DNA from: Bdellovibrionales bacterium RIFOXYC1_FULL_37_79
Lineage (GTDB): Bacteria > Bdellovibrionota > Bacteriovoracia > Bacteriovoracales > Bacteriovoracaceae
Assembly: GCA_001770015.1 (NCBI GenBank)
Contig: MEQB01000050.1
Span: 1 to 52,518 of the forward strand
Direction: 5' to 3'
DNA: 52,518 nucleotides
Part shown: piece by piece, positions 2,497-14,246 of the stretch
Numbering within the stretch: position 1 is the first letter of the stretch
Layout: every line of letters begins with the position of its first letter
Made by a program: the position numbers and the translations under genes
The notes under the pieces: generated by a model
The model's input: only the letters and a program-made list of their open reading frames with translations
Databases searched by the model: none
What the model was told of the DNA's origin: nothing

Positions 2497-4029
2497 TTAA
2501 TTCGAGTTATATTTAGTCACAGCCGTACATACCACTTTCTTTTTACTGGAAAAAATTCCGCCACCATCGCATTTTTCTTCAATACAAGAAGTAGGACAGG
2601 AAAAAAGTGATATGTCCGCTGATTCCAACTTTTCTTTTAAGAAATCGTTACATGCTTTGATTGCTTCTTGTTTGGTTGACTCAAGATATTCGGAAGGTTT
2701 TTTGGAGCAAGCGGAAGTGGCTTTAGAATTACCGATAAAATTTTCATGTTGGAAGAGGGTTTGCTTAAAAGGACCACATTCGTCTTCATCAAGGCATATT
2801 GATTCAATTTGACCGTCTCCTGCTTTAGAAAAAACAATCAACTTTATGGTATACCAATTATTGTTATAATTAATTTCTCCAGATTTAATATCGTATCCAC
2901 CAATTAAGTAGCCAGATGGTGAGAAATTGACTTCCACAAATCTTTTCTTAAATTCAATTCTTATATTTTTGTTGGAAAGGACACAGTGATCCGAGAAAAA
3001 AAAACGTTTTATCTGACCGTTTGAATGGAGATTGATCCAATCTGCAAGAGTACAACGAGGATTTTCATACTTTGATGATAACTTGCCTGCATAGAGATAC
3101 GAAGCCGGGCCTAGCTTCTCAAGTGTGCCGTCTGGATAGAATTTAAAAGTTAAGTCACCCAAAGGAGTATCGCCAGACAAATTATCAAGGATGATTGCAC
3201 CTCCTGCTATAGATACACTTGAGCTAGGTGGAATTTGAACTCTGCGCATCTCTTTTAGGAACCCATTTGGGTAAAAATCAACCTCATTCTTAATGTAAGG
3301 GATTCCAGGATTGTCATCATAGGTTGCATACAGCAGTTTGGTTAGTAGGCTATTCCATTCACCATTACTAAATTGAACATCGAAAGCCAGCATGTATAAA
3401 TATTTGTCGATGGTATAATCATTAAATTCATTGGAAAAGAAAGTAGCGTTTAAATATCTTACACGCTTTGAATTGAGATGAACGTAGGCATTTTCTTCTT
3501 TAGCTTCCCGATAAATCAGTTCATGAATGACCAGACCTGCTTTATTGGCATTATCCATCTGATCCCATAAATCTTTTCTGATTTTATAGCGCCTTTCTCC
3601 ACTAAAGGGTTTCTTTTGATGAGCTGCCTGGACAATTTCGCAATTGGCGGGATAGGTAACTTCCCCAGTATCCGGAATATCACTTAAAGTATCACTTGTG
3701 AACAAAGTATTTTCTGGTAGCTGAAATTCGTTCCACCACTTTTCATAAAGAGTGGCGCGGGTGGGATTTAGTCTTTTTATTTTGTTTATAATGGATGTGA
3801 CTTTATCATTTAACGACGTTGAATTGTCATCAAGGTCAAGTGTGATGTCATGACGAAATTTAGCTTCATAGAAATCATAGAGAATAATACTTTGAATGCT
3901 GCTATCAGGATTTTTACAAACCAAAACATCGCCACCATTTCCAGTTCCCTGTCCGTCCAGAGCTGCAAAGGAGCAGAAGCTAGTTAAATAAAGGGCGAGA
4001 AGTGCGCTTAAGGATAATTGTTTAATCAT
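2497..4029 (-). CDS. Exported GNGGD/HELIYRE-family protein, paralog A
   Basis: A 510-residue paralog of the downstream gene with the same signal peptide, GNGGDVLVC, YDFYEA and HELIYREA motifs. Its middle section again holds repeated F-(Y/H)-x-(N/D)-G-x-(I/L) units (FYPNGFLKE, FYPDGTLEK, LHSNGQIKR), which suggests a MORN-like beta repeat. Its ATG lies inside the last codons of the TIGR02147 regulator (8-nt overlap), so the two are probably translated together. The regulator, this gene and the next copy form one unit. Long identical DNA stretches shared with the neighbour (compare 2150-2300 and 3725-3870) indicate recent duplication or gene conversion. The lost second His of HExxH makes a protease role uncertain. 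Confidence 0.88.
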   Translation of the reverse strand: MIKQLSLSALLALYLTSFCSFAALDGQGTGNGGDVLVCKNPDSSIQSIILYDFYEAKFRHDITLDLDDNSTSLNDKVTSIINKIKRLNPTRATLYEKWWNEFQLPENTLFTSDTLSDIPDTGEVTYPANCEIVQAAHQKKPFSGERRYKIRKDLWDQMDNANKAGLVIHELIYREAKEENAYVHLNSKRVRYLNATFFSNEFNDYTIDKYLYMLAFDVQFSNGEWNSLLTKLLYATYDDNPGIPYIKNEVDFYPNGFLKEMRRVQIPPSSSVSIAGGAIILDNLSGDTPLGDLTFKFYPDGTLEKLGPASYLYAGKLSSKYENPRCTLADWINLHSNGQIKRFFFSDHCVLSNKNIRIEFKKRFVEVNFSPSGYLIGGYDIKSGEINYNNNWYTIKLIVFSKAGDGQIESICLDEDECGPFKQTLFQHENFIGNSKATSACSKKPSEYLESTKQEAIKACNDFLKEKLESADISLFSCPTSCIEEKCDGGGIFSSKKKVVCTAVTKYNSN

Positions 4030-7019: not shown

Positions 7020-7922
7020 TCAACGAAAAGTCTCTGTAAATTTTACACTTCCTGGAAGTGCATTAAGGAAATGATCCATCTTCTCTTGCCCAAAATCCTT
7101 GATCGCTTTGCGTTTATTACAATTGCTACAGAGTAATTGGATATTGGTTAAATTATTGGTTCCACCTTTGGCGTAAGGGATTAGGTGGTCAAATTCCAAG
7201 TTTTGAGTGGATTTACAGTTTTCACATTCTCCGTTTGTTCTTTTATAAACAGTCTCTTTGATTTTTCTTGGGATATGGCGACTGTTTTTTGCTGGAACAT
7301 TTTTAGACTCCCGTTTGACTTCAATCTTTTGATTGATATAGGTATCAGCCAGCAGCGAAATGATTTTATCCAGATCATCTTCCTTAGTTAAGTTTTTAAC
7401 TTTTTCAATTTTCTTCAGAGTTTCTTTAGAGAGGTTTACGTGAACTCTTGCGATTTCAGTTGTGGCGTTGTTAATAATGGTTCTTTTGGGGGTTTTATCA
7501 ATGCCAAAATCTTTTTTCATTTTATAAACCTTATCTTCACACTGGGTCTTAGTCAGGTTTTTCATTTGGTCAAAGATTTGCAGTTTGTCTTGTTTGGATA
7601 TTATGTTTGCCTCTTTAAAGAGATTGCTCGCAAGATTGATACTTGATAGGGAGAGTGATCCATTGTCGATATTTTTTTTAAGCTCAGGAAGAGTCTTAAG
7701 CACGCGCATTGCATTTATCCGTCTCCATGCTTGTTGTTCAGTATAGTTTAGTTCTTTTAATGAGTAGTCAAACAATGAAGTGTATCCCAGATCTGAGTAG
7801 AGTTTTCTTCTTTCAATTTCTTCCAGGTGAGAGATAATTTCAGAGAGCAGTTTTCGTTCTTTTTTTATTAGATTTTTTGTGCTGGTTAGCAGTTCTTGGT
7901 CGCTATAATTTTTGATATCCAT
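7020..7922 (-). CDS. HNH endonuclease-domain protein
   Basis: A 300-residue protein. The N-terminal half is helical (LGYTSLFDYSLKELNY... RRINAMR), as in DUF222-like/HNH families. The C-terminal HNH domain is about residues 225-285: C-x-x-C (CENC), FDHLIPYAKGG, N-x-x-x-L-x-C-x-x-C-N. HNH domains bind one metal and cut DNA. The zinc-knuckle cysteines and the DH pair are all present, so the enzyme may be active. AAGGAAAAG lies just before ATG 7922. The family is often multi-copy in Bdellovibrionota; here a broken 3' copy lies at 5013-5091, which hints at mobility or recombination. Its substrate is unknown. Confidence 0.85.
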   Translation of the reverse strand: MDIKNYSDQELLTSTKNLIKKERKLLSEIISHLEEIERRKLYSDLGYTSLFDYSLKELNYTEQQAWRRINAMRVLKTLPELKKNIDNGSLSLSSINLASNLFKEANIISKQDKLQIFDQMKNLTKTQCEDKVYKMKKDFGIDKTPKRTIINNATTEIARVHVNLSKETLKKIEKVKNLTKEDDLDKIISLLADTYINQKIEVKRESKNVPAKNSRHIPRKIKETVYKRTNGECENCKSTQNLEFDHLIPYAKGGTNNLTNIQLLCSNCNKRKAIKDFGQEKMDHFLNALPGSVKFTETFR

Positions 7923-8634: not shown

Positions 8635-9891
8635 ATGAGAGATAAACTCAAGGTTAATGAAAAACGGTTAAGAGAAATTAATGACTTTTTAACTAAATCC
8701 AATCAGCCGATTATCGATAATATTTTAAATGTTATTAAAAAGTACGGCACTCCTGAAGAAATTAATAAGAAGGCAAAAGAAAACATGAAGCTTGAAACCA
8801 AGCTTAAAAAATTAAAAGATATGAAGTCCCCTTACCTGGAAGGAATCAACTGGTTGATCGAACAAAAAGAAAAAAATGCTTTTGTGTCAGTTGAAGATTA
8901 TCGAAAAAATATTTTAGGAAGCAAATACAAAGCATCTAACTTTAATAAAGATTATCAAGTGACTCTTGAACTTTCTGCTCTCCAATATTTTCCATGGTTA
9001 CTTGAGCAAGTAAAACAAGTCATTGCTAAAAAAGAACTGCTGCCTGCCAGATTTATTAGAGTAAGGATGATGAAAGAACAAGAGGCTGATCAGGGTGATA
9101 TCATTGCCGTCAGTGCAGCGATGGATATTTTGGGCGCAACCTGGGTTGAAACGCTTGATACCAAAGGAACGGATGGTAGTAACGTTCACCTTGGTGGGCC
9201 AGATACCATCACTGGATATTTTGGTGGAGTAGGGCAACCAAATGATTACCCACTTAAGTGGCTTGATGAATATCTCTACTACTACACTAACTACGGCGTA
9301 AAACAAGTTTTAAATGTAAACCCAGGAACCATCATGATTGCCTACCTTGTGCATAAAATGGGCGTGGATATGGAATTTAAAATTTCTGTATTCATGGGTA
9401 ATGATAATCCTTATTCAATTCTGGGAACTCTCATGTATGCCAAAATGTTTGCCAGAGAAGACGGTTCAACTCCGCTGGTGGGCTTTAACTTTTCTAACTC
9501 AATTAACAATGAAAATATTGAACTTTCGGCAACCGTCAGGAAAGAGCTTGGCTTTGAAGATCTGGTGCGTTTTGAGCACCATATTACAGAAACCTATAAA
9601 TCAATTGTTCGTCAGCCTTATGATAGAACTGAAGAGCTATGCCAGGTAGCTAAAAAAGTTAGAAATATAGCTGCTAAACATGAAGGCGCACTCCCGCAAG
9701 TTGATTCTAAGCGCGAGCACCCCTCTGATATTTTGGATTATTTTATTACGAAAAAAGATGTGGAATCAAAAGGCCTTATGAAACACTTACTTCAAAATTA
9801 TCTGGATAAGCACGATGCGGTTAATAATACTGCAAAAAGATTAACTGAAAACAACATCCCGGTACTTGGTGCTTGGAATGTTCATAGATAA
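8635..9891 (+). CDS. Conserved-looking protein of unknown function, first gene of LarA operon
   Basis: A 418-residue soluble protein that I do not recognise. The N-terminus (1-80) is Lys/Glu-rich and helical. The core has LPARFIRVRMMKEQEADQGD, a Gly-rich GTDGSNVHLGGPDTITGYFGGVGQP loop region and a SVFMGNDNPYSILG segment, which resemble the substrate loops of an alpha/beta enzyme, perhaps a TIM barrel. There is no signal peptide or membrane segment. AAAAGGAG is 5 nt before ATG 8635, which sets this start although the frame is open upstream. It is followed after 28 nt by the iron alcohol dehydrogenase and four more genes on the same strand, so it is probably a catalytic member of that pathway. 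Confidence 0.85.
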   Translation: MRDKLKVNEKRLREINDFLTKSNQPIIDNILNVIKKYGTPEEINKKAKENMKLETKLKKLKDMKSPYLEGINWLIEQKEKNAFVSVEDYRKNILGSKYKASNFNKDYQVTLELSALQYFPWLLEQVKQVIAKKELLPARFIRVRMMKEQEADQGDIIAVSAAMDILGATWVETLDTKGTDGSNVHLGGPDTITGYFGGVGQPNDYPLKWLDEYLYYYTNYGVKQVLNVNPGTIMIAYLVHKMGVDMEFKISVFMGNDNPYSILGTLMYAKMFAREDGSTPLVGFNFSNSINNENIELSATVRKELGFEDLVRFEHHITETYKSIVRQPYDRTEELCQVAKKVRNIAAKHEGALPQVDSKREHPSDILDYFITKKDVESKGLMKHLLQNYLDKHDAVNNTAKRLTENNIPVLGAWNVHR

Positions 9892-9919
9892 TTTTTAAAA
9901 ATGTTTAAGGGAGAACGGT

Positions 9920-11080
9920 ATGACTATCAATCCAGTAACACTTAATTGGCCAAATCATATTGAATTTGGCTCGGGTAAAATAAAGACGTTGGTTAATTAT
10001 TTAAAAGATTCGAAAAGAGTTTTTGTGCTAATTGATCCGCCGATTTTACCACTTGTGGAAGATATTTTTAAGGAAGTATCAAAAATGGGAGTTGAATTAA
10101 GTATCTCGACCGATGTCGTACCAGAACCCCCTATTGTTGAATTAAAAAAACTTCTTATTCTTACAAAGAAATTATCCTTTGATACCGTCGTTGGTATCGG
10201 TGGAGGATCGGCCATGGATATGGCAAAATTAATTGCAGTATTGTTTGATGGATCTCAAAAAATTGAAGACGTGATTGGAATTGGTAATGTTAAATCGAGA
10301 CATGTTAAATTGATTTGTGCCTCTACTACTTCTGGGACGGGAAGTGAAGTGACTCCAATTGCGGTCTTGACAGATACAGAGGCTAAACTTAAAAAAGGTG
10401 TCGTGAGTCCTTATCTGGTTCCCGATGTTTCCATCATTGATCCGGATTTAACTATCGGATTACCTGCGTCCATAACCGCAGCGACTGGAATGGATGCCAT
10501 GACCCATTGTATAGAAGCCTATACCAATAAACATGCTCATCCCATTATTGATAATATTACGCTGGAAGGAATCAGATTGATTGGCAGAAGTTTAGAGAGA
10601 GCTTGTAATAATGGAAAAGATATTGAAGCTCGAACTGATTTGGCCCTGGGTAGTCTTTACGGTGGATTAGCGCTTGGTCCTGTTAACACCGCTGCGGTTC
10701 ATGCACTCGCATATCCTTTGGGAGGTGAATTTAAAATTAGTCACGGAGTAAGTAACTCGGTACTTCTTCCTTTTGTTATGCAGTTTAATTACACATCATC
10801 AAAAGAAAAATATGCAAATGTTGCCAAGGCCCTCGGAGTTAAAGATACCGGAAACATCGAAGAGATGGCCCAGGCTGCCGTTAAAAAAGTTCGAGAGATT
10901 TCTAATAAGTGTAAAATTCCAGCTTCTATTAAGGAGCTGGGTATTCCGGAAAATGCCATTAATGAAATGAGTGAAGCTGCTATGAAAGTTGTTCGACTAC
11001 TTGGTAATAATCCAAGAACTGTCACTCTCGAGGATGTTAAAGGTATCTATCGAAAGGCGTATGACGGCGTTGTTGGATAA
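9920..11080 (+). CDS. Iron-dependent (group III) alcohol dehydrogenase
   Basis: A 386-residue protein with the fold signature of Fe-ADHs. The nucleotide-binding GGGSAMDMAK is near residue 94. Metal ligands inferred by family alignment are D192 and H196 (MDAMTHCIEAY), H261 (VHALAYPLGG) and H275 (SHGVSN). Members reduce or oxidise short hydroxy compounds such as lactaldehyde, 4-hydroxybutyrate or propanediol with NAD(P). Substrate cannot be read from the sequence. The start ATG 9920 has AGGGAGAA upstream. It lies 9 nt or less from the next gene in the LarA operon and probably makes or uses the carbonyl partner of the hydroxyacid handled there. Confidence 0.92.
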   Translation: MTINPVTLNWPNHIEFGSGKIKTLVNYLKDSKRVFVLIDPPILPLVEDIFKEVSKMGVELSISTDVVPEPPIVELKKLLILTKKLSFDTVVGIGGGSAMDMAKLIAVLFDGSQKIEDVIGIGNVKSRHVKLICASTTSGTGSEVTPIAVLTDTEAKLKKGVVSPYLVPDVSIIDPDLTIGLPASITAATGMDAMTHCIEAYTNKHAHPIIDNITLEGIRLIGRSLERACNNGKDIEARTDLALGSLYGGLALGPVNTAAVHALAYPLGGEFKISHGVSNSVLLPFVMQFNYTSSKEKYANVAKALGVKDTGNIEEMAQAAVKKVREISNKCKIPASIKELGIPENAINEMSEAAMKVVRLLGNNPRTVTLEDVKGIYRKAYDGVVG

Positions 11081-11092
11081 GAGGAAATAGTG

Positions 11093-12043
11093 ATGAAAAT
11101 AGTTATCTTAGATGGAAATACGGTAAATCCAGGCGATATCGATTGGAAACCGCTAGAGAAAATCGGTGATATAACCTATTACCCAAGAACGAATCCCGAG
11201 GATGTTACCAAGCGATCCAGAGGTGCAGAAATTTTAATTATCAGCAAAATTTCCATGAGTAGAGAAGTCATTGAGCAGTTACCAGATCTGAAATACATTG
11301 GAGTGATAGCTACCGGTTATAATGTGGTTGATACGAATTTCGCTAAAGAACGTGGCATCATTGTTACCAACGTTCCTGATTATTCCTCTGATTCAGTGGC
11401 CCAAATGGTTTTTGCTCATATTCTAAATTTCGCCAGGAGAGTTGAACATTATACCGAGGAAGCACGTAGGGGAGTGTGGGGAAACGCCGAGGATTTTTGT
11501 TATTGGAATACTCCGCAAATCGAACTGAGTAATAAAATTTTAGGTCTTGTAGGGCTTGGTGCAATTGGAGTGAAAGTTGCTCGCATCGCTCAAGCAATGG
11601 GGATGAACGTAATTGCCTTTGATCCTTATTCCAAAGGCCTTCCCGGGGTTTCGCTTACTGATCTTGACAGTGTATTTAAGCGCAGTGATTTTTTGAGTTT
11701 GCACTGCCCTCTTACTAAAGAGACCAATTACATCATCAATAAGAACAATCTTTTGAAAATGAAAAAAAATGCTTTTGTCATTAATACCGGCAGAGGTCCC
11801 CTCGTAAAGAGTGATGATCTGGCGGAGTTTTTAAATAACGATGTTATTGCCGGAGCAGGTCTGGACGTTTTGGAAGTTGAACCACCAAGAGACGGTAATC
11901 CACTGCTTAGGGCCAAAAATTGTTATTTTACACCACATCTGGGATGGGCCAGCAGGGAAGCAAGAATCAGACTGGTGCAAATGGTTGCAGATAATTTGCA
12001 AGCATTCCTTGATAAAAGACCAATCAATGTGGTGAATCGATGA
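11093..12043 (+). CDS. D-isomer-specific 2-hydroxyacid dehydrogenase (glycerate/hydroxypyruvate reductase-like)
   Basis: A 316-residue protein with the two-domain D-2-hydroxyacid dehydrogenase layout. The NAD site is GLVGLGAIGVKVA near residue 150. Catalytic Arg (NTGRGPLV, about 234), Glu (DVLEVEP, about 261) and His (PHLGWAS, about 282) are all visible. It interconverts a 2-oxoacid and a D-2-hydroxyacid. Either GTG 11090 or ATG 11093 could start it, with AGGAA just upstream; I chose ATG. It overlaps the LarA-type gene by 4 nt, which suggests that the hydroxyacid whose stereochemistry LarA-type proteins change is oxidised or made here. Confidence 0.92.
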   Translation: MKIVILDGNTVNPGDIDWKPLEKIGDITYYPRTNPEDVTKRSRGAEILIISKISMSREVIEQLPDLKYIGVIATGYNVVDTNFAKERGIIVTNVPDYSSDSVAQMVFAHILNFARRVEHYTEEARRGVWGNAEDFCYWNTPQIELSNKILGLVGLGAIGVKVARIAQAMGMNVIAFDPYSKGLPGVSLTDLDSVFKRSDFLSLHCPLTKETNYIINKNNLLKMKKNAFVINTGRGPLVKSDDLAEFLNNDVIAGAGLDVLEVEPPRDGNPLLRAKNCYFTPHLGWASREARIRLVQMVADNLQAFLDKRPINVVNR

Positions 12044-13278
12044 AACTGAGCAAGGTTGAAATTTCTTTTGATTCAAAAAAACTTGAAGATATTGATCAAA
12101 CTATAGATAACGAATTAAAACCCAAACTAAAAATTTTTAAAAAAGGTGAGAGAGTTGCGGTAGCTTGTGGAAGTAGAGGAATTAATAATTTAAATTTGAT
12201 TGTAAAAAGGGTCATCGATAACCTTAAAGCAATTGGCACCAATCCCTTTATTATTCCGGCCATGGGAAGTCATGGCGGCGCAACGGCGCAGGGGCAGATA
12301 GAGGTTTTAAAAAGTTTGGGGATAACCGAGGAATATATTGGTGTTCCTATTGTTTCGAACATGGATACAGTTAAAATAAAACAAAAAAAACTTCCTCTTG
12401 ATATTTTTATAGCGAAAGATTCTTATGAGGCAGATAAAACCATTCTAATCAATCGTATAAAGCCACACACTGATTTTCATGGCAAATTTGAATCAGGACT
12501 TTTGAAAATGTCTGTGCTGGGACTTGGTAAACACGATGGTGCATTATCGGTACATCAATATGGAGTGAAGGGATTAAAAGAATATATGCCCAAAGTGGCA
12601 AAATTTTTAATTGAAAAAAAGTATATTGATATGGGAATTGCTATCGTGGAAAATGCCTATGATGAAACACTTCTTATTAAAGCATTAGAGGCAAATGACA
12701 TCGTCAGTGAAGAAGCCAAACTTTTAAAAATTGCTAAAAAAAATATGCCCAGCCTTCCGGTTGATGAAATTGATTTACTTATCATTGAAAGACAGGGGAA
12801 AAATATAAGTGGGACTGGAGTGGACCCTAATATTATTGGAAGAATGAAAATTCCAGAGACTTTGGAACCTAAATGGCCATCCATTAAAAGAATTGTGGTG
12901 ACTGATTTAACCAAAGAATCCCATGGAAATGCAGTAGGAATGGGCTTTGCCGATATCATAACCAAAAAGTTGTTTGAAAAAATTGATTTGAGAGCCGTTT
13001 TTGAAAATGTTTCTACGGCCACCTTTTTGGAAAGAGGCAAAATCCCGCTAGTGGCTGACACTTCCAGACAAGCATGTGAAACAGCGCTTAGATCCCTAGG
13101 CTTGGGAAAAATTGATTATAAAAAGATCAGGATTATTTATATTTTAGATACCCTTCATCTTTCTGAAATATATGTAAGCAGTGCAATTTTTAAAGAGATT
13201 AAATCTAAAGTCAGGTTGATTTTAAAAGACGTAGAAATTTTTGATCAACAAGGAGAGCTAAATGGATTTAAGAATTAA
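12040..13278 (+). CDS. LarA/DUF2088-type protein (possible nickel-pincer racemase/epimerase)
   Basis: A 412-residue protein with the LarA-like signature PAMGSHGGATAQGQ (about residues 74-87) and NRIKPHTDFHGKFESG (about 139-154). LarA uses a nickel-pincer nucleotide made by LarB, LarC and LarE to racemise lactate; relatives epimerise other 2-hydroxyacids. The cofactor-making genes are not in this window, so they must be elsewhere if this enzyme is active. It starts inside the stop of the dehydrogenase (ATGA overlap) and its end overlaps the SDR by 17 nt. The tight packing supports a hydroxyacid epimerisation-plus-oxidation route. Family assignment is from recognised motifs only. Confidence 0.8.
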   Translation: MKLSKVEISFDSKKLEDIDQTIDNELKPKLKIFKKGERVAVACGSRGINNLNLIVKRVIDNLKAIGTNPFIIPAMGSHGGATAQGQIEVLKSLGITEEYIGVPIVSNMDTVKIKQKKLPLDIFIAKDSYEADKTILINRIKPHTDFHGKFESGLLKMSVLGLGKHDGALSVHQYGVKGLKEYMPKVAKFLIEKKYIDMGIAIVENAYDETLLIKALEANDIVSEEAKLLKIAKKNMPSLPVDEIDLLIIERQGKNISGTGVDPNIIGRMKIPETLEPKWPSIKRIVVTDLTKESHGNAVGMGFADIITKKLFEKIDLRAVFENVSTATFLERGKIPLVADTSRQACETALRSLGLGKIDYKKIRIIYILDTLHLSEIYVSSAIFKEIKSKVRLILKDVEIFDQQGELNGFKN

Positions 13279-13999
13279 TGGTAAGATAGCATTGGTTTTT
13301 GGCGCTTCAAAAGGGCTTGGTAAGGCGGTGGCGGCACAGTTGGCACAAGAAGGTGCGAAGGTCATTCTGGCGTCCAGGAATAGAGAATTGCTGGAAAAAG
13401 CTAAAAAAGAGATTGGTGCTTTGGATATAATGGTGACGGATTTGAAAGTGGAAACCGACGCCACAAGAGTGGTGAATGAAGTCAGTGAACAATATGGCGG
13501 GGTTGATATACTGGTTACCAATAGCGGTGGTCCGACCAACGGATTATTTCAAGATATAAAAATAAATGACTGGAAAGATCAGTATCAAAATCTTTTTTTA
13601 TCACCGATTGAGGCCATTCATGCAGCGTTACCCTATATGAAAAAAAATAGCTGGGGAAGGATTTTGCTGATTACATCAGTGGCGGCCAAAGAACCCATTA
13701 TGAATTTAACCATCTCCAATGGATTAAGGGCCGGACTCATGGGTTTGGTCAAAAGTATCAGTAACGAAGTGGCAGCAAATGGGATTACTATTAATGCACT
13801 TCTGCCAGGTTATACTCTGACCGAGCGGTTGAAAGAATTAAATGTTAATGAGCAGAAAATCAGCGAACAAATCCCCGCCAGACGCCTGGGTAAACCAGAA
13901 GAGTTGGGCAGTCTGGCCTGCTTTTTAGCATCTGATAAGGCAGCATACATTACAGGGCAGATGATTGCCTGCGATGGCGGTTATCTCAAAGGGCATTGA
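13262..13999 (+). CDS. SDR-family oxidoreductase with a non-canonical active site
   Basis: A 245-residue short-chain dehydrogenase/reductase. It has the cofactor motif GASKGLG (about residues 14-20), NSGGP in place of NNAG, the active-site Ser in ITSVAAKE, and the C-terminal TGQMIACDGGYLKG. The usual YxxxK catalytic pair is missing: the equivalent stretch reads TISNGLRAGLMG, with no Tyr and Arg rather than Lys. Some SDR subfamilies share this pattern, so it may use other residues or act on an unusual substrate. AAGGAGAGCTAA precedes ATG 13262 inside the end of the LarA-type gene, which shows translational coupling. Confidence 0.88.
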   Translation: MDLRINGKIALVFGASKGLGKAVAAQLAQEGAKVILASRNRELLEKAKKEIGALDIMVTDLKVETDATRVVNEVSEQYGGVDILVTNSGGPTNGLFQDIKINDWKDQYQNLFLSPIEAIHAALPYMKKNSWGRILLITSVAAKEPIMNLTISNGLRAGLMGLVKSISNEVAANGITINALLPGYTLTERLKELNVNEQKISEQIPARRLGKPEELGSLACFLASDKAAYITGQMIACDGGYLKGH

Positions 14000-14012
14000 T
14001 TAGGAGAAATAA

Positions 14013-14246
14013 ATGACTGAGATGGATAAGATCCAAAAAATTGCTAAAAGATCATATTCTGGGCTAGTGGTGAGAGCATTTGTCTATTCAATCATTCCAA
14101 CTTTTGTGGTTTATGTAATTGGTGTGAATATGGGGATTTCCCCCAACGACGTTGTAGCACGAGGTTTTGTCGGATTTATGTCAGTGATCTTTGGGGTATT
14201 GATGATAAAAAAAAGAATCGCCATGGGAAAAGTTTTAAAAAAATAG
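14013..14246 (+). CDS. Small two-helix membrane protein, last gene of LarA operon
   Basis: A 77-residue protein with two hydrophobic segments (about 19-38 and 50-65) and Lys-rich ends, so it is probably an inner-membrane hairpin. AGGAGAAATAA precedes the ATG, and it follows the SDR by 13 nt, so it belongs to the operon. No family was recognised. It converges on the gene ending at 14249. Confidence 0.7.
   Translation: MTEMDKIQKIAKRSYSGLVVRAFVYSIIPTFVVYVIGVNMGISPNDVVARGFVGFMSVIFGVLMIKKRIAMGKVLKK

Follow-up and report, generated by a model that had tools for sequence, protein, structure and literature searches.

4-Hydroxy-2-oxobutanoate (HOB) occurs in two engineered pathways. In the homoserine cycle, the accessible sections of the source term it a non-native metabolite (PMC8879981), and the description of the synthetic 2,4-dihydroxybutyrate (DHB) pathway, in its accessible part, terms DHB non-natural (PMC6689062). 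The latter text also has AspC interconvert homoserine and HOB, and, according to the accessible part of another paper, DHB is racemised by LarA enzymes (PMC11770544). Here we describe an operon that encodes a LarA-type protein together with a first enzyme, X, and that lies at positions 8635-14246 of a stretch of 52,518 nucleotides (hereafter the window) on contig MEQB01000050.1 of Bdellovibrionales bacterium RIFOXYC1_FULL_37_79 (GCA_001770015.1; 4.36 Mb on 74 contigs, 95.8% completeness). X is our main finding: it represents a conserved, widespread and unnamed TIM-barrel family whose genomic context links it to the metabolism of homoserine and of C4 hydroxy-keto acids. A literature search, which covered open-licence papers only and thus is a weak negative, returned nothing on X or on a natural HOB route.

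Results

A preliminary description of the window, made from the letters alone, had claimed a tight six-gene operon with a LarA-type protein and an unrecognised first enzyme. The operon is confirmed as real, and the two characterisations also stand. Its genes are as follows:

8635-9891, + strand: X, 418 aa, unnamed family without Pfam, NCBIfam or PDB sequence match
9920-11080, + strand: iron-containing alcohol dehydrogenase (Fe-ADH; PF25137 3.1e-57, PF00465 1.8e-41)
11093-12043, + strand: D-isomer-specific 2-hydroxyacid dehydrogenase (DHD; PF02826 3.7e-54, PF00389 1.1e-28)
12040-13278, + strand: LarA-type protein, nickel-pincer isomerase group 22 (LAR22; NF052515 500.3 bits)
13262-13999, + strand: short-chain dehydrogenase/reductase (SDR; PF13561 3.5e-50; adh_short)
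14013-14246, + strand: small hydrophobic, probably membrane protein, 77 aa (ribosome-binding site AGGAG; DUF4013 match only below cut-off)

All six genes lie on the same strand, with successive gaps of 28, 12, -4, -17 and 13 bp. A purine-rich ribosome-binding site precedes five of them; the LarA-type gene and its neighbour overlap. We place the start of X at the ATG at 8635, which is preceded by AAAGGAG and at which the homologues begin as well (the mechanical list of open reading frames starts X further out, at GTG 8554, and DHD at 11090). Promoter-like matches were not in excess (23 versus 21.6 in shuffles). The best NCBIfam match of the Fe-ADH is lactaldehyde reductase, at 285 bits and under that family's cut-off.

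X had no match near the cut-off in Pfam, NCBIfam or PDB sequences, whether its 42 aligned members were searched singly or as a 42-row alignment, the columns of which have a mean identity of 74%. Relatives are encoded at 315 loci of genome contigs from many phyla. The neighbour counts given below refer to the best 80 of these loci, which come mostly from metagenome-assembled genomes and are in some cases cut by contig ends; since only the closest 80 were kept, the counts are biased to close relatives. On plasmids, one further X was found, in Polaromonas (53% identity), while the viral contigs searched held no relative of X or LAR22.

Structure prediction, which the preliminary description had suggested for the first protein, gave a model of high quality (pLDDT 91.8, pTM 0.90) in which helices alternate with eight main strands and the N-terminal region is helical, and we are confident in modelling X as a TIM barrel with an N-terminal helical domain. 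The loop after strand 3 is strongly conserved and yet has the lowest model confidence (73, 55 and 63 for the blocks of residues 171-200); it might become ordered upon ligand binding. In a fold search, ThiC (Z 12.2, rmsd 4.1, 254 aligned) and glutamate mutase E (Z 12.0, rmsd 4.6, 254 aligned) headed the list, but the rows between Z 10.5 and 12.2 are unrelated barrels, such that the result is a tie among TIM barrels. Profile-profile comparison with PanB and DapA indicated no homology (probability 0.1 and 0.3).

The gene order X-ADH-(AFOR)-DHD-LAR is found again at 4 of the 80 kept loci (two in Bdellovibrionota, one each in Acidobacteria and Chitinivibrionales) and hence is not due to chance. Among six related loci, the SDR is present only in L005 (66%), and the small membrane protein was found in none of them, L005 ending 281 bp past its SDR. 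Within the window's phylum (368 genomes), LAR22 occurs in four genomes and X in the same four, each from a different genus of one family. In genome G072, X lies on contig C108 and ADH-AFOR-DHD-LAR on a separate contig, C72. In a quick tree of X, one clade (support 97) unites the six sequences that come from LAR-bearing genomes; together with six threonine loci of the ApgM type it makes up a 12-row group (support 95).

The association of X with LarA-type genes that the preliminary description had asked about thus exists, in one clade, while most X genes sit elsewhere. We rejected the idea that X is inherently tied to LarA, because in 76 of the 80 loci, some of them cut by contig ends, no LAR gene was seen within 4 kb. 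The chief partner is a PanB-like gene (within 4 kb in 49 and within 200 bp in 46 loci). Other neighbours are the aminotransferases AT6 (15) and AT7 (10), whose counts overlap as the queries cross-hit at about 25% identity, Maf (14), Lrp (12), a Glu/Leu-dehydrogenase-CBS protein (9), GlnA (8), AFOR (6) and DHD (5, one of them distant at 28%). Less frequent are an ApgM-type homoserine kinase (5), ThrC, LAR and ADH (4 each), homoserine dehydrogenase (HSD; 3, two archaeal and one from Chloroflexota), a DapA-Fae fusion (2) and SDR (1).

Several single loci add to this picture. A pair of Fe-ADH and AFOR is found in L010, L061 and G072; in the archaeal L070, HSD adjoins AFOR near X, and an AFOR-like reading frame lies in the same stretch in L074. 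Near X on the Polaromonas plasmid are a GlcD-like FAD oxidoreductase, DapA, TRAP permeases, an Ldh-family oxidoreductase, Fe-ADH and SSADH. D- and L-2-hydroxyacid dehydrogenases are found here instead of a racemase, and Fe-ADH with SSADH parallels Fe-ADH with AFOR. In two genomes of the window's family, a 2-oxoacid:ferredoxin oxidoreductase (KOR) with a fused beta-gamma subunit lies directly upstream of X/ADH (L006:6149-8982, L124:5693-8212), and G072 has a KOR pair that looks similar by eye. In a Heimdallarchaeota locus (L055:10279-11814), DapA is fused to the formaldehyde-activating enzyme (Fae) and adjoins X; the fusion suggests an aldolase for pyruvate and formaldehyde that is supplied through tetrahydromethanopterin.

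The X-linked PanB proteins have full PanB family scores, over the PanB cut-offs. In a tree they (51 rows, including two duplicate fetches) separate from six other PanBs (support 91). Seven genomes with a PanB-X pair were inspected for a second PanB, which is over the cut-off in five and partial in one, the seventh having a single copy; some second copies adjoin a PanE-like gene, as judged by eye. In a Desulfobacterales genome (L119), a partial second PanB (1450-1935, - strand) is directly followed by a canonical-looking LarA homologue (110-1462, - strand), a further case of PanB and LarA as neighbours.

All 14 control genomes have HSD (PF00742). Of 20 X genomes, 12 have it and 8 lack it, the latter being the window genome, G074, G138, four Elusimicrobia and one Heimdallarchaeon (G009). 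In the 294 genomes of Elusimicrobiota, X occurs in seven and HSD in 128, and none of the seven has both (one-sided Fisher 0.017, not corrected for kinship). All seven Elusimicrobiota X loci contain ThrC and a homoserine kinase, which is of the ApgM type in five and of the shikimate-kinase type in two. The five ApgM-type loci also have AT7, adjacent in four and about 6 kb away in L025, and in the two others PanB flanks X on the opposite side. The shikimate-kinase-type protein scores best against NF040667, below the cut-off; the accessible part of an earlier study shows this type to be the homoserine kinase of Desulfovibrio (PMC5764234). Since the two sets lie on separate, distant branches of the X tree, X was apparently drawn twice into a threonine locus lacking HSD. 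The simplest reading is that homoserine in these Elusimicrobiota would come from transamination of HOB, with X being needed for it.

LAR22 scores 500.3 bits against NF052515, "nickel pincer cofactor-dependent isomerase, group 22" (cut-off 400), and 25 bits against the Pfam family Lar_N (PF09861, cut-off 23.3). Its AlphaFold model was built from five rows and has an overall pLDDT of 68, with a good N-terminal domain and a poor C-terminal part (about 30). The model matches 12 structures with Z 18.8-20.9 (the next row has 6.2), which identifies the LarA fold; 11 of the 12 are titled LarA or malate racemase, and the title of 4nar names no function. R46, H78, H143, K156 and H172 are invariant in all 11 aligned members. 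The first three align with the TR, H and H of the canonical LarA homologue from L119 in a profile comparison, while K156 and H172 were matched to LarA K184 and H200 by spacing only. Because the fold and the catalytic and cofactor-site residues are kept, dependence of LAR22 on the nickel-pincer cofactor (NPN) is expected.

The preliminary description had noted that larB, larC and larE are missing from the window and had pointed to the rest of the genome, where, as it turned out, they are not recognisable either. In the window genome (G000) and the genomes of L005 and L006 (G074 and G138, also labelled G001/G002), which are 94-96% complete, LarC has no match, LarB reaches only 22.9-24.9 bits (cut-off 175) and LarE at most 32.9 bits (cut-off 150). 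G072, of the same family as the window, has LarE over the cut-off with LarB- and LarC-like reading frames directly adjoining, and all three proteins are over their cut-offs in the Acidobacteria and Chitinivibrionales genomes that carry the X-LAR operon. Assembly gaps can hardly explain why a cluster found contiguous in a relative is missing from all three genomes. LAR22 might there rely on cofactor scavenging or on another way of NPN synthesis, or might have a role as apo-protein.

On plasmids, LAR22 relatives occur in 113 records, all below 60% identity. One of them, from Paenibacillus (L139:6959-12080), has a LAR22 relative, SDR, larE, larB and larC in a row; the LAR22-SDR pairing is as in the window, here with the cofactor genes alongside.

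Upstream of the operon, the window encodes an HNH endonuclease (7020-7922); in G072, a reading frame that looks similar by eye (L125:13220-14164) is some 4 kb away from X. Further upstream are two tandem secreted-looking proteins (907-2463 and 2497-4029; 518 and 510 aa) with near-identical N-termini, by eye a recent duplication.

Discussion

What could X and its operon do? We tentatively favour the reading that the operon is a C4 hydroxy-acid module around HOB and that X works at HOB, though we would not be surprised to be wrong. HOB is proposed because it is the one metabolite that fits all neighbour contexts: PanB and DapA-Fae (pyruvate plus a one-carbon unit), the aminotransferases (homoserine), DHD with the racemase (DHB), and ADH with AFOR (malate semialdehyde to malate). 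Also in favour are the published activities of LarA enzymes on DHB and of AspC on homoserine and HOB, a LAR22 relative adjoining a four-carbon acid sugar kinase, the absence of HSD from the Elusimicrobiota X genomes, the window genome, G074, G138 and G009, and the separate branch of X-linked PanBs, most of whose genomes tested (five of seven) have a second PanB over the cut-off. Every reaction in what follows we infer from gene content, conservation, folds and the presence or absence of genes.

As our first and weakly held choice, X would be a lyase or synthase that makes or breaks a C-C bond of HOB. PanB or DapA-Fae could join pyruvate and a one-carbon unit to HOB, and X beside either might act before or after it. 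DHD would interconvert HOB and D-DHB, LAR22 would invert C2 to give L-DHB by nickel-pincer hydride transfer, and the Fe-ADH would interconvert the C4 alcohol and malate semialdehyde. In the sister operons AFOR may connect malate semialdehyde with malate, and in the window the SDR is a candidate for this last step. In other organisms X would serve the nitrogen version of the node, in which HOB is transaminated to homoserine and passed on to threonine.

A number of observations weigh against this. The window operon lacks AFOR, PanB and an aminotransferase, and its LAR22 comes without cofactor genes. Of the threonine genes, the search of the window genome covered HSD only, which is absent. HSD is present in all seven PanB-X genomes tested, so X is no substitute for it there, and if PanB or DapA-Fae makes HOB, X as a HOB synthase would be redundant at these loci. 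In G006, the only one of the five ApgM-type Elusimicrobia searched for it, PanB had no match. The KOR of L006 scores as VorB (3-methyl-2-oxobutanoate type), which points to branched-chain keto acids. Finally, LAR22 relatives at about 40% identity adjoin sugar-acid genes: one in Rubrobacter lies next to a four-carbon acid sugar kinase and PdxA, another next to UxaC.

The last point favours a tetronate route, in which LAR22 would epimerise C4 sugar acids of the threonate/erythronate type and X would be a new sugar-acid dehydratase, leading to HOB (2-keto-3-deoxytetronate) for processing by other enzymes. HOB is indeed the formal dehydration product of tetronates. We nevertheless consider this unlikely: the Rubrobacter relative is just 40% identical, X is found on one other plasmid only, the PanB, aminotransferase and ThrC/homoserine kinase neighbours are left unexplained, and the fit to the threonine loci is poor because a precursor for threonine synthesis would have to be ubiquitous. 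The preliminary description had proposed a route for a hydroxyacid or sugar acid. A 2-hydroxyacid route is plausible; with X mostly beside a PanB-like gene, we favour a C4 hydroxy-keto acid over a sugar acid. The earlier interpretation as a whole is partly supported, and the two outcomes that it had named as refuting give a mixed picture: the window genome does lack recognisable lar cofactor genes, and X is conserved next to LarA-type genes in one clade.

The full PanB scores of the X-linked copies, the VorB-like KOR of L006, and the Lrp regulator and Glu/Leu-type dehydrogenase among the neighbours could also be taken to mean that X acts on ketopantoate or 2-oxoisovalerate, with pantoate or another branched 2-hydroxy acid as the substrate of LAR22 and DHD. 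Five of the seven PanB-X genomes, however, have another PanB over the cut-off, and the ThrC and homoserine kinase genes beside X in genomes lacking HSD would remain unexplained, which makes this route distinctly unlikely. These same threonine genes would suit X being a non-homologous HSD, or another enzyme of aspartate semialdehyde, instead of a HOB enzyme. This is very unlikely in our view, as three loci (two archaeal, one from Chloroflexota) have HSD itself within 4 kb of X, PanB-X genomes already have HSD, the TIM-barrel model of X shows no separate nucleotide-binding domain, and the LAR operon would hold two alcohol dehydrogenases. It is highly improbable that X is a carbon-skeleton mutase of the cobalamin or radical type, for which one could cite the two enzymes heading its structural list, given the tie among unrelated barrels and the lack of a recognised B12-binding partner among clustered or scanned neighbours.

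Returning to HOB as the common node, a more far-reaching proposal is possible but doubtful: that X marks a natural route to homoserine and threonine from pyruvate and a one-carbon unit via HOB, which would bypass aspartate semialdehyde in many phyla of both bacteria and archaea. The window operon would then be its nitrogen-free arm, leading from HOB to malate via both DHB enantiomers with a nickel-pincer racemase whose cofactor is obtained elsewhere. If true, uncultured anaerobes would already carry out naturally what synthetic biologists designed as the homoserine cycle and the DHB pathway, and a new enzyme family would be central to this chemistry. The gap left by threonine genes without HSD would furthermore be filled, and LarA group 22 would gain a substrate. 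Intact LarA proteins without larB, larC and larE also raise the testable question of cofactor scavenging.

How, then, does the locus compare with described systems? LAR22 belongs with LarA superfamily group 22 (NF052515) by its score, fold, catalytic His pair and NPN-site residues, and differs in that the window genome has no larB, larC or larE above cut-off; in the literature searched, no substrate was found for "group 22" by name. The X-linked PanBs resemble ketopantoate hydroxymethyltransferase in their scores, but split from the other copies in the tree; the window operon has no PanB, and X itself is not homologous to it. The synthetic homoserine cycle, as far as its accessible description goes (PMC8879981), resembles the proposed chemistry, leading from pyruvate and a one-carbon unit over HOB to homoserine, then on by homoserine kinase and threonine synthase, and the genes of these last steps adjoin X in Elusimicrobiota. 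The route considered here differs in that it would be natural and would use PanB or DapA-Fae together with X. Likewise, the DHB pathway shares malate semialdehyde, DHB and HOB as intermediates in the accessible part of its description (PMC6689062), whereas a racemase, an Fe-ADH and AFOR are the enzymes that we propose here.

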